NCBI RefSeq assembly: GCF_041381155.1
Contig: NC_091135.1
Span: 55,813,997-55,877,996 of the forward strand
Reading direction: 5' to 3'
DNA from: Argopecten irradians
Taxonomy: Eukaryota; Mollusca; Bivalvia; Pectinida; Pectinidae
Length of the DNA: 64,000 nt
In this document: positions 15,843 through 36,224 of the stretch, piece by piece
Layout of the letters: the number at the start of each line of letters is the position of its first letter
How positions within the stretch are numbered: position 1 is the first letter of the stretch
Made by a program: the position numbers and the translations under genes
Notes under the pieces: model-generated
What the model was told of the DNA's origin: nothing
Database searches by the model: none
The model's input: the letters and a program-made list of their open reading frames with translations, nothing else

Positions 15843-15856
15843 GTTGTCATGACAAC
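15843..15856 (+). promoter_or_regulatory. X-box (RFX-type) motif upstream of alpha-tubulin copy 1
   Basis: GTTGTCATGACAAC is a perfect 14-bp palindrome made of two GTTGTC half sites. RFX factors bind GTNRCC-type half sites in inverted pairs, and GTTGTC is an accepted half-site variant. It lies 225 bp before the TATA box of copy 1. Matching sites at the same relative place precede copies 3 and 4. Confidence 0.6.
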
Positions 15857-16041
15857 ATTAAAATTAAAAAAGTTTCAATTGTAAATACGCGGTTATGGTT
15901 CAGTTAACAGCTAGGTCAGGTTAAGGTATATCTGTATTAATAATAGCAGCACGCATGGTTGACTCATGTACCAACATCTGAGCTTTATTGATTTTCCTCT
16001 GCTCTTCGTCGTCCGCTTATATTATAACTATGGGTACTGGT

Positions 16042-16174
16042 CACGTGATGGATGTAATCCCGCCCTTCGTTCTCGCTGACTATATAAGCGACTGTAACCG
16101 GGGTGTTTAGGTACTTCGCCCTTACGACTCATCGTTGTCTTCAAGGAGGAAATCATTACCAAATCTCAATCAAA
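16042..16174 (+). promoter_or_regulatory. Core promoter and 5' leader of alpha-tubulin copy 1
   Basis: The region holds an E-box CACGTG (16042), a CCCGCCC GC-box (16059) and a TATA box TATATAAG (16081-16088). Transcription should start about 25-30 bp further on. The leader word CGCCCTTACGACTCATCG, near 16120, recurs before copies 3 and 4 (with a shortened match before copy 2), as does the AATC(A)AAAATGG context of the start codon. Start of transcription is inferred from spacing only. Confidence 0.75.
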
Positions 16175-19100
16175 ATGGTGAGTACTAACTCTTCTAAATT
16201 CGTCCACCTCACTGCACATATTTTTCTTCACAATGAACACAATAAAGGATGTGTGTATTATAATTAAATGATAGTAATGTCCAGACGCTTATATTGTTAT
16301 ATTTACCAAAGGAAAGAATTTGTTTCCATTTGGAGGTAATCTGTCATGAGGACTTCACTTGAATAGATTTTTATGTTATGGAGCAAACCGCTAAGTGTAA
16401 AATTTATTGTTTGTGTTGAAGCTCAAGAACTATTCCTTGATCTAATCTGTGGAAAATTCACATTTATTGAGTAACTAATTTGTCACAGTATCGCTGCGCC
16501 GCTGTATCAGCCACTTAGATGCGCAGTTACAAACGTCGATGTCATTTTACGTTATGAGATGAAAACATATTTTTGAACCAATTGAAGTGCTCATTACAAG
16601 CCAGATTATATTATTGTTTCTTAACATGTCGAGCTCAATCATATATGACTATAGATGTAATTATGATATAAATGTAACAATAATTAAAACAACAGATTGC
16701 AATGCCTTCCAGGGGCAACATTTTTGTGATTTGCCAAGGTCATCCTTCCATTTTGTTTTACAATTTCAGCGTGAGTGTATCAGCATCCATGTCGGCCAGG
16801 CCGGAGTCCAGATGGGCAATGCCTGTTGGGAGCTGTACTGTCTGGAGCACGGTATCCAGCCTGATGGTCAGATGCCCTCAGACAAGACCATCGGAGGGGG
16901 AGACGACTCCTTCAACACCTTCTTCAGCGAGACAGGAGCGGGCAAACATGTCCCCCGGGCTGTCTTTTTGGATCTGGAGCCCACAGTCGTCGGTAGGTGT
17001 TCATATGTCAAGAATATATATACCAAATCACTGACAACAATCTGATTAAAGACTTGTGGTAAAATGTAATACATCCTAACCAATAGGTTCCATCTATGAA
17101 ACGATTTAACAATATGGATCTGTATTTTAATAAACATGGTCAAGAATAAATTTGAACATTCCGCAACAAAACGTATCTATCAGCACTGAAAGAAATGTTA
17201 AATTTGTCTTTTTTGACTGGAGCCTACAGTCGTCGTTAGGTGAATAATTCTAACAACAATAAACATTCTGCAATGGAAATCAAATAGCAGAAAGAAAAAA
17301 AAAATACAAATCTGTCGAAACAAGATCATACCATACCAAACGGGGTGCTACATGTTTATAATCTTCTATAACACAAACGGAATATTATAGATACTTCTTG
17401 GATTATGCATCGCTATGTCGCTGAAAGTTGTCTAAATATCGATTTTATAAAACAATCACTTAACATATTTGTAACATATGGTACGTTTGATCTAATTGTC
17501 TACAATACCAAGCTACGATTCGTATCTGCTGGCCTTGGTCACTATCAACATACCCTATGTTTACAGGCCTCACTAAAATATGTATGAATGTAGAACACAT
17601 TAACCTGTGGCTAGAGTATAAACCGAGCTCCTCTGGGAATTCATTAGAGAGCATAGTTAAGTATGTATATCTATAAAAGTGAGGTTCATAGGAAGATGAC
17701 TTCCCGTGGTTAATGCTAGACGCGTGTATATAGTCACAATATGTCCGTGTATGGGTTGGCCCTAATGCTGCAGATGTACTTAGTTATGCTTTATGAAAGA
17801 AGATAAGATAGAACAGAGAGAGGATTTCTGCCGAATTGTGTTGCTTTTTTATGATTTAAGCTCACCTGTCGGGTACCTGTATATACTTTGTAATAGGCAC
17901 GCCATGCCTAGTGAGTATTTATACATTCACACACATATAAAAAGGTCCTGACTCATCAGGTGAATGCTTTAATGTGTCTATCTTCACACAGTATATATGT
18001 ATAAATTTCACCTCGTGTATTTAAGTCTGTCACAATTTTCGGGTAAACGTTTTATAAATGACTTAAATGGCCTCTAAGTGGTTTGCCTCAGTAGTTACAT
18101 AGAATGCTCTAGCTGCCTTTTAGCTGTCTAGTCTAATTTGTTTATAAGAGTTTGTACCTTTGAGGTCAATACAGAACTGCAAATTCATTGTGACACAGAA
18201 GGCATGGTTCGTTGAATGCTGAAGGGGTCGTTTTGTCTTAATTGTGCATTTGTGTATTACCATTTTAACATATGGTAAAGCTGACGAGTTCAGTCACGGT
18301 ACGTTGCACCGACAGATGTAAAATAGGCACACGTTATGCTCGATCGCACTGAATCAACGTGAAATGTTTGAAAATGGTATAATTGATGTTGTGTGGGAAG
18401 TACATTTACCTTAATCTACACTAGAGATTGGAAACATACGATATATCTTATAAATTAGTATCACCTGGAGCTCTTTATTATTTGAGATTTATCTCTGATA
18501 TGGTACCAACAGATTGTCGAATCTGATTGAAAATGATATCCATTTATTCTTTAGACGTACCAAACAAGTGATGAAAAAGAATAAATCAGATTAAAATAAA
18601 AGAAACATAGTCGTGTTGATACTCCTGCTTAAAGTCGTCCGAGTTGTACTTGAATGAGGACAAACATTACATTCGACATATATTTGAAAACTACATTACG
18701 TGGGTGTAAAATGTATGTTTGGTATCATATCATCATGTTATTTGATATTGAACTCACAGAATGGTGTCAGTTGAACTAATCGCAACAATGTGTTTAAGCC
18801 AACATCTTACTTCTTTGTTACAGATGAAGTGAGAACTGGAACCTACCGACAACTGTTCCACCCCGAGCAGCTCATCACGGGGAAGGAAGACGCCGCCAAT
18901 AACTATGCCCGTGGTCATTACACCGTAGGCAAGGAGCTCATCGACGTCGTCCTCGATAGGATCCGCAAACTGGCGGACCAGTGTACCGGTCTCCAAGGCT
19001 TCCTTCTCTTCCACAGCTTCGGAGGTGGAACTGGATCCGGTTTTTCGTCTCTGCTGATGGAACGTCTCAGTGTTGATTATGGAAAGAAATCTAAGCTAGA

Positions 19101-19953
19101 GTTCGCCATCTACCCGGCGCCTCAGATCTCCACGGCTGTAGTCGAGCCTTACAACTCTATACTAACCACCCATACCACACTGGAGCATTCCGACTGTGCC
19201 TTCATGGTGGACAACGAGGCCATCTACGACATCTGTCGTCGTAACCTCGACATAGAACGTCCAACCTACACTAATTTGAATCGCCTGATAGGACAAATCG
19301 TCAGCTCCATCACGGCATCCCTACGTTTTGACGGCGCTTTGAACGTCGATCTGACCGAGTTCCAGACCAACCTGGTGCCTTACCCGCGTATCCACTTCCC
19401 CCTTGCAACCTACGCTCCAGTTATCTCCGCCGAGAAAGCTTACCACGAACAGCTCACGGTTGGTGAAATCACCAGTGCCTGCTTTGAACCTGCTAACCAG
19501 ATGGTAAAATGTGACCCTCGTCACGGTAAATACATGGCCTGTTGTCTTCTGTACCGAGGTGATGTCGTACCAAAGGATGTCAACGCTGCCATTGCTACCA
19601 TCAAGACCAAGAGGACAATCCAGTTTGTCGACTGGTGCCCGACTGGTTTCAAGGTCGGAATCAACTACCAGCCACCAACTGTTGTACCTGGAGGTGATCT
19701 GGCCAAAGTCCAGCGTGCCGTGTGCATGTTGAGCAATACTACCGCCATCGCCGAGGCCTGGGCTCGTCTTGATCACAAGTTCGACCTGATGTACGCCAAG
19801 CGTGCCTTTGTTCACTGGTACGTGGGAGAGGGTATGGAGGAGGGAGAGTTCTCCGAGGCTCGCGAGGATTTGGCAGCTCTAGAGAAGGACTATGAGGAGG
19901 TTGGAGTTGATTCAGCAGAAAATGAAGATGAGGAGGAGGATGACGAATATTAA
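16175..19953 (+). CDS. Alpha-tubulin, copy 1 (three exons, complete)
   Basis: The coding exons are 16175-16177 (start codon only), 16770-16992 and 18824-19953, joined by introns of 592 and 1831 bp with GT-AG ends. The product is a 451-residue alpha-tubulin, the GTP-binding subunit that pairs with beta-tubulin in microtubules. It begins MREC, the motif read during tubulin mRNA autoregulation. It has K40 in the [10 protein letters not shown] loop, the GGGTGSG nucleotide-binding loop and a C-terminal EY that can be detyrosinated. Its acidic tail, [13 protein letters not shown], differs from the [13 protein letters not shown] of copies 3 and 4. Small differences from its siblings include [10 protein letters not shown] against [10 protein letters not shown] and FSSLL against FTSLL. 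The start codon standing alone before intron 1 is the usual layout of animal alpha-tubulin genes. Confidence 0.97.
17205..17242 (+). repeat. Partial duplicate of the end of exon 2 inside intron 2 of copy 1
   Basis: The segment TGTCTTTTTTGACTGGAGCC, followed by TACAGTCGTCGTTAGGTG, closely matches the last bases of exon 2 with its splice donor (about 16961-16998). In the true donor the bases are GTCGTCG|GTAGGT; here the G before GT has become T. The piece is about 240 bp downstream of the original. It is too short and altered to act as an exon. Confidence 0.6.
17243..18823 (+). other. Remainder of intron 2 of alpha-tubulin copy 1
   Basis: AT-rich intronic sequence ending in CATCTTACTTCTTTGTTACAG. 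The last 20 bases are shared with the acceptors of copies 3 and 4, while copy 2 differs upstream of CTTTGTTACAG. Nothing else was recognised. Confidence 0.6.
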
Positions 19954-19995
19954 ACTCTATTATCTAGCAGTCTCAGGGATGTTAAAAATATAACT

Positions 19996-35639: not shown

Positions 35640-35805
35640 GTAGGTGGGGAAAACCTAAAGTAACCGGGAAAACCATCGACCTAAGGTCAGTACCCGTAAA
35701 CTACCTCGTGGAGGATTAATCAGTCTTTGACACCCAGAAGTGGAGGACGAGTGTGGTAGTATGTCCGGTACACCTTAACCATTAGGCCACAAAAGACACC
35801 TGGTT
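35640..35805 (-). mobile_element. tRNA-derived SINE (unit B)
   Basis: Counterpart of the SINE at 27541, with the same orientation and the same A-box-like TGGCCTAATGG. It was carried along in the duplication rather than inserted separately. Confidence 0.6.
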
Positions 35806-35901
35806 GTCACGAAAATTGGTGTGATATATTTTAGAGTTTAAGTTGATAACATGGTTATTTCAGGTAGCTGTGGTACTGTCATTAAACCTGTGTCTCCAAC
35901 A

Positions 35902-35915
35902 GTTGCCATGACAAC
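35902..35915 (+). promoter_or_regulatory. X-box (RFX-type) motif upstream of copy 4
   Basis: GTTGCCATGACAAC, the same 14-mer as before copy 3, 231 bp before the TATA box. Confidence 0.65.
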
Positions 35916-36093
35916 ATCACAAAAGTAAAAACAGTACAAGGTGTAAATTAGCGGTTATGGTTCAGGTGCTAGCTAGGACGGATCGTTAAGGTAGTATAAA
36001 ACACGCATGGCTGGATGTATCAATATCCCACTATCAAAGTGATTGCTCTCCTCTCTTTGTCGTCGTCTGCTTGTACGGTAACTACGGTTCTAA

Positions 36094-36224
36094 TCACGTG
36101 AGGGGATAATCCCGCCCTTCGTCCTGGCTGACTATATAAGGATCTGTATCCAGGAAGTTTAGATACATCGCCCTTACGACTCATCGCTGTCTTCAAGGAG
36201 GATTGTAACCAAATCTCAATCAAA
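36094..36224 (+). promoter_or_regulatory. Core promoter and 5' leader of alpha-tubulin copy 4
   Basis: An E-box in TCACGTGAGG, a CCCGCCC box, a TATA box TATATAAG at 36133-36140, and the leader word CGCCCTTACGACTCATCG. A few point differences from copy 3 lie between the TATA box and the start codon. Confidence 0.75.

Follow-up and report, generated by a model that had tools for sequence, protein, structure and literature searches.

How might one alpha-tubulin locus among many be set apart when its protein is nearly the standard one? The question is raised by a 64,000-nt stretch of the Argopecten irradians genome (contig NC_091135.1, positions 55,813,997 to 55,877,996 of the forward strand; hereafter the window, whose own numbering is used below), which holds a tandem array of four alpha-tubulin genes, all on the + strand. 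Each gene is preceded by a short inverted repeat resembling the X-box, the DNA site of RFX transcription factors. A first-pass annotation had described these palindromes as lying at matched positions before every copy, and had suggested that the array may be a dedicated ciliary or sperm-tail source of alpha-tubulin. Here, we propose that each array gene carries a selectively kept RFX site, located 323-332 bp before the ATG in copies 1, 3 and 4, which are intact. Bound at the inverted GTTGYC half-sites, an RFX dimer would help the TATA promoter fire in RFX-expressing cells. The array would then have a control of its own, with a nearly standard alpha-tubulin as its product, made most likely in cells needing much tubulin for cilia or flagella. 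Copy 2 is probably a decaying member in which TATA box and reading frame are gone and a slightly weakened site is kept. We give this reading as a whole, a maintained RFX X-box together with a ciliated-cell setting, a probability of roughly 0.55.

Palindromes upstream of the array genes

The inverted repeat spans 14 bp, with half-sites of the GTTGYC type and a 2-bp spacer. As the first-pass annotation had stated, palindromes of this GTTGCC/GTTGTC type are present before the alpha-tubulin copies, exact in copies 1, 3 and 4, and copy 2 keeps a weakened form with a single mismatch.

15843..15856, no strand, X-box of copy 1, GTTGTCATGACAAC, a perfect palindrome
22491..22504, no strand, X-box of copy 2, ATTGTCATGACAAC, with a change in a single outer base, 13/14 identical to copy 1
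27803..27816, no strand, X-box of copy 3, GTTGCCATGACAAC
35902..35915, no strand, X-box of copy 4, GTTGCCATGACAAC, within noncoding sequence recently duplicated from copy 3

Measured from the start of the site, the TATA box lies 238 bp away in copy 1 and 231 bp away in both copies 3 and 4. The distances given earlier (225, 231 and 231 bp) therefore hold for the latter two, whereas the 225 bp of copy 1 corresponds approximately to a measurement from the end of the site. Since copy 2 has no TATA box, its site can be positioned relative to the ATG only; distances to the ATG are 332, 242, 323 and 323 bp for copies 1, 2, 3 and 4, respectively.

Excess over chance

Searching the window with the pattern GTTGYCATGRCAAC, allowing up to two mismatches, returned six matches where 1.01 were expected, a number reached in none of 100 shuffles; four of the six are the array sites. 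The other two are X-box-like sequences at 20162 (GTTACCATGAAAAC, about 0.2 kb past copy 1) and at 61329 (GTTGCCCTGGTAAC, about 0.5 kb before an open reading frame (ORF) at 61807-62175 that has no Pfam match).

The 500 bp before each ATG were also scanned with a hand-made RFX matrix against 5000 dinucleotide shuffles. Best scores for copies 1-4 were 21.1, 16.3, 22.7 and 22.7, and were reached by 1, 6, 0 and 0 of the 5000 shuffles, respectively, so that all four upstream regions are enriched over shuffled controls.

The exact pattern is found at 508 places across the genome (846 Mb), compared to nine for a reversed control. One dispersed repeat holds 178 of these sites, and the remaining 330, which may include other repeats because only this one was subtracted, are still far above nine. 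By hand calculation from the density of these remaining 330 sites, an exact site is expected in about 2 in 10,000 cases for any given 500 bp. An 18-base form, GTTGYCATGACAACATYA, is found at five places in the genome, three of which lie before copies 1, 3 and 4.

Conservation among diverged promoters

The informativeness of these sites depends on how far the surrounding sequence has diverged. The first-pass annotation had cautioned that sequence around the site is generally similar, leaving mostly copy 1 against copy 3 as independent evidence. This caution is justified for copies 3 and 4, which share 97.8% identity over 414 bp around the site and by this comparison tell little on their own about its conservation. 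It does not extend to copies 1, 2 and 3: between -900 and a point 50 bp short of the site, their identity is only 43-46%, and over the initial 1.2 kb of intron 2 it is 44-51%. We judge these values to be about the level of unrelated, AT-rich sequence after gapped alignment, with the proviso that alignments of such nearly saturated sequence are uncertain.

Against this background, the palindrome retains 13/14 identical bases between copies 1 and 3, 13/14 between copies 1 and 2, and 12/14 between copies 2 and 3. We compared 770 upstream windows of 14 columns, with starts from -900 to about -130. Windows matching the identity of the palindrome numbered 5/770 for copies 1-2 and 8/770 for copies 2-3, all overlapping the palindrome itself. 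For copies 1-3, ten of 770 did so: five overlap the palindrome and five fall on a second element, GCGGTTATGGTTCAG, 45-49 bp downstream. The palindrome is therefore the best conserved 14-column window in two pairs and is tied with one other element in the third. Identity is raised in the flanks as well, reaching 74% across 50 bp on the 3′ side for copies 1-3 and 62% across 50 bp on the 5′ side for copies 1-2; the raised side differs between the two pairs, and the palindrome is common to both. From these alignments, the palindrome appears conserved between diverged promoters, among paralogues, and copy 2 counts as evidence too, which makes the basis broader than copy 1 against copy 3.

15889..15903, + strand, second conserved upstream element GCGGTTATGGTTCAG of copy 1; also at 27852-27866 (copy 3) and 35951-35965 (copy 4), none in copy 2

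The second element belongs to a block of 65 bp, 81.5% identical between copies 1 and 3, that lies 3′ of the site and includes 15 identical bases. The palindrome could be one part of a larger enhancer, about 65 bp long, whose main factor is not RFX, or it could be read by another factor altogether. Copy 2 lacks much of the block, yet keeps 13 of the 14 palindrome bases, and the sequence fits the published RFX half-site GTTGYCA (PMC10530576). We regard this explanation as very improbable.

Organization of the array and probable decay of copy 2

All four genes are built alike: exon 1 is short and ends in ATG, exon 2 encodes 75 residues, and exon 3 is long.

16770..19953, + strand, alpha-tubulin copy 1 (exon 2 16770-16994, exon 3 18820-19953; boundaries as matched)
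23061..25755, + strand, alpha-tubulin copy 2 (exon 2 23061-23285, exon 3 24622-25755), with two premature in-frame stops, likely a pseudogene
28370..33971, + strand, alpha-tubulin copy 3 (exon 2 28370-28594, exon 3 32838-33971)
36469..41418, + strand, alpha-tubulin copy 4 (exon 2 36469-36693, exon 3 40285-41418)
16175..16177 (copy 1), 22733 (copy 2), 28126 (copy 3) and 36225 (copy 4), + strand, start codon closing exon 1, with a GT donor behind it in each case
16080..16088, + strand, TATA box CTATATAAG of copy 1
28033..28041, + strand, TATA box CTATATAAG of copy 3
36132..36140, + strand, TATA box CTATATAAG of copy 4
16042..16047 (copy 1), 27996-28001 (copy 3) and 36095-36100 (copy 4), no strand, CACGTG E-box, none in copy 2

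Upstream of copy 2, neither a TATA box, nor CACGTG, nor the second element GCGGTTATGGTTCAG is found. Its exon 3 carries two premature in-frame stops, the first being a TGA right behind FVDW, near residue 347. Copy 2 is probably a pseudogene. Its near-intact site may then reflect persistence rather than present selection.

A 23-bp minisatellite lies 5′ of copies 3 and 4 (26763-27327 and 34976-35517), and a Pfam scan of five other ORFs in the window gave no matches.

Divergence of the exons does not follow that of the introns. For copies 3 and 4, identity over the initial 1.2 kb of intron 2 is 96%, yet 11.9% of their fourfold sites differ. Copies 2 and 3, by contrast, are saturated in their introns (47%), yet just 4.2% of their fourfold sites differ. 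Because fourfold-site and intron divergences disagree in this way, exon-to-exon gene conversion within the array (16770-41418) is likely.

Gene conversion also bears on whether the sites could be passive relics, that is, pieces of an ancestral promoter or of a repeat that were duplicated, kept by conversion and are functionless now. Besides the likely conversion, the trivial likeness of copies 3 and 4, the site retained in the probable pseudogene and the dispersed repeat that spreads 178 exact copies of the palindrome would all fit such an origin. However, a conversion tract would bring neighbouring sequence along, yet the neighbours are more diverged than the palindrome in all three pairs, and the array sites lack the TAGAA flank of the repeat. 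A DNA search with 126 bp around the copy 1 site found only itself, although this search also missed copies 3 and 4 and is thus blind to diverged relatives. On balance, we consider a passive relic unlikely, at odds of around one in eight.

Fit to known RFX sites

The genome encodes candidate readers of the site: the RFX DNA-binding domain (PF02257) gave nine exon matches, all nine above the cut-off. Copies 1 and 3/4 fit the restricted X-box consensus from Drosophila, GYTRYY N1-3 RRHRAC (PMC2375033); copy 2 does not, and one of its strands matches the looser RYYVYY N1-3 RRHRAC. According to the same source, an X-box alone does not predict RFX targets in flies, whereas X-boxes conserved between species do, and palindromic X-boxes are over-represented among RFX targets (PMC2375033).

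Compared with this class of animal ciliary X-box, the array site likewise has inverted half-sites with a 2-bp spacer, lies less than 1 kb from the ATG, is conserved, and is a perfect palindrome in copy 1. It differs in missing a stricter consensus, GTNRCC N0-3 RGYAAC (PMC10530576), in being conserved among paralogues only, and in being predicted from sequence. Furthermore, RFX sites in mouse and frog are reported to cluster near the transcription start (PMC4498915, PMC5245798), whereas those of the array lie about 230 bp before the TATA box. The array X-box is a plausible further member of the known class.

The matrix scores against shuffles, the three diverged promoters, the restricted fly consensus (copies 1 and 3/4) and the RFX genes in the genome together bear out the earlier description of the sites as RFX-type, and we think it likely, at about three chances in four, that the array promoters maintain an RFX X-box. 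A joint action of RFX with FOXJ1 was considered as well and found unsupported: the forkhead motif RYAAAYA is patchy among the copies, with one occurrence in copy 1 (15881), one on the opposite strand in copy 2 (22611) and none in copies 3 and 4.

Palindromes elsewhere in the genome

The 178 palindromes of the dispersed element continue as GTTGYCATGRCAACTAGAA. A 24-base version of this repeat motif is found, within two mismatches, at 302 genomic places, and most of the listed repeat copies contain the perfect RFX palindrome GTTGCCATGGCAACTAGAA (for example L001:1301-1568, L004:1302-1604 and L055:1296-1597). The repeat may thus be spreading RFX sites across the genome; a literature search returned no report with this subject in its title. 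The genome-wide excess was rejected as proof of ciliary use, with 178 of 508 sites in this one repeat and others in local clusters. In one such cluster (L057:1424-1835), six X-box-like sites are spaced about 65-125 bp apart, less than 1 kb from an ORF with a weak C2-domain match.

Twelve exact sites were sampled non-randomly from the 508 (the first four of the exact-match list, plus the first eight T or A variants taken contig by contig). Near these, ten ORFs were picked by eye at nine of the 12 loci (omitting L001 and L004, both repeat copies, and L052) and scanned. One matched alkaline phosphatase, three gave matches below the cut-off (7tm receptor, C2 domain and TFR dimerisation domain), and six gave none.

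RFX factors have many non-ciliary targets, and the array sites might bind RFX in the service of another program, such as cell division, neurons or general expression. The matches just listed would fit this, as would the array proteins, which over exon 3 are at least 95.5% identical to five of the eight other alpha-tubulins (one in part). Most Xenopus Rfx2 direct targets, moreover, carry no cilia annotation (PMC3889689). On the other side, Rfx2 control of tubulins has been reported in multiciliated cells (PMC3889689), and among several alpha-tubulin loci just one has the site, which is what a cell-type-specific source would lead one to expect. We would give a non-ciliary program about one chance in four.

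Alpha-tubulin genes outside the array

An exon 2 search of the genome returned 14 matches, comprising 12 alpha-tubulin genes and two distant, beta-like sequences (38 and 43% identity). Whereas all four window copies have the site, as the first-pass annotation had claimed of every copy, none was found at the eight alpha-tubulin loci elsewhere: within 1.5 kb before ATGs placed by the exon-1 pattern, their best scores were 3.9-6.2, compared to 16.3-22.7 in the array. Hits scoring at least 9 appear further out; they include one of 10.8 in L022, about 1.6 kb away, and one of 13.8 in L021, at a distance of about 2.1 kb. The X-box would thus be a feature of the array among the loci examined. The comparison is suggestive rather than one of four against eight independent genes, because the array has only two or three independent lineages.

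In the protein tree, a gene at C2:56.32 Mb groups with the array (96/99 support, with most forks of the tree open). About 2.7 kb beyond its exon 2, two strong X-box-like hits fall inside a local repeat, made of units of about 115-130 bp with the X-box-like TTGCCATGGNAAC (L024:9770-10000 and L033:1-60).

The proteins themselves differ little. Over exon 3, copy 3 is at least 95.5% identical to five of the eight outside proteins (one over part of the exon) and 88-92% identical to the other three. Only two residues are particular to the intact copies 1, 3 and 4 (with one of the eight others left out of columns 76-181), so that the protein carries few marks of a special isotype, which a dedicated gene would not require.

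Beta-type genes comprise an array at C14:15.54-15.69 Mb of at least about 15 copies (counted by an exon match near residues 49-178) and at least eight further loci.

A possible ciliary or sperm-tail setting

RFX regulators often switch on cilia genes, and a ciliary or sperm-tail role of the array is plausible because of published reports on RFX, tubulins and ciliated cells, taken together. In Xenopus multiciliated cells, Rfx2 controls tubulins (PMC3889689), and one ciliated cell type in the gill of a deep-sea mussel has an alpha-tubulin 1A gene among its markers (PMC11299980). The array resembles the Rfx2 tubulin targets and the tubb2b region of Xenopus (PMC3889689, PMC5245798) in that a tubulin gene is concerned, with RFX control presumed in our case. 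It differs in being a sequence prediction, in concerning a tandem array of alpha-tubulin genes, and in that the site is missing at eight sister loci. Among the listed titles and abstract openings, from an open-access subset of the literature, no report was found of an X-box before a bivalve or other mollusc alpha-tubulin.

Tests inside the genome added nothing to the ciliary role, and the suggestion of a dedicated ciliary or sperm-tail source has no support beyond the general link between RFX and cilia: the palindrome is common, no cilia neighbours were recognised at the sampled sites, tektin upstream regions show no credible site within 1 kb, and the protein is near-standard.

Several observations weigh against a maintained X-box in a ciliated-cell setting. 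Concerning the site, scoring is weakened by the use of a hand-made matrix; the strict consensus GTNRCC N0-3 RGYAAC is missed on both strands by copies 1, 2 and 3 (the site of copy 4 being that of copy 3); and, given the conserved flanks, the constrained unit may be wider than the X-box. Concerning the genome, the exact palindrome is common, with a third of its copies in one repeat. The 12 sampled sites include three in that repeat and one (L057) in a local cluster; their recognised neighbours are not ciliary, and no cilia gene was recognised among the ten scanned ORFs, a small sample. The array's companion in the protein tree, the gene at C2:56.32 Mb, has no site in the 1.5 kb before its ATG.

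Tektin genes, taken as a positive control, offer no help either: six upstream regions of 2.3 kb each, two of them before below-cut-off matches, contain no credible site within 1 kb, although the true first exons may lie further upstream. The best hit, in L045 (score 18.1), seems by eye to overlap the start codon; a hit in L049 (GTAACCTTGGTAAC, score 14.5), strict-looking by eye, is about 2.2 kb away, upstream of a match that falls below the cut-off; and the other four regions reach at most 11.4. From the literature, annotated cilia genes make up only 20% of the 911 direct targets of Rfx2 in Xenopus (PMC3889689), and in human airway cells TUBA1A is among the FOXJ1-induced genes and is not listed among those whose induction is enhanced by RFX3 (PMC3710277).

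Possible implications for tubulin supply

A maintained RFX X-box in a ciliated-cell setting leads us to a broader and more tentative idea, which we consider possible at somewhat better than one chance in three: that labour among these genes is divided by promoter and not by protein. Of 12 loci encoding mostly near-same proteins, one array with an RFX switch would form an amplified supply for ciliated tissue, with its exons kept similar by gene conversion and its RFX site retained by selection in an upstream region that otherwise drifts almost freely. If true, the array would provide a clean natural test of whether axonemal tubulin is supplied by special genes or by special control of ordinary genes, as near-same proteins are here placed behind different promoters. 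Copy 2, where the site has outlasted the TATA box and the reading frame, would then reveal in what order such a gene falls into decay.

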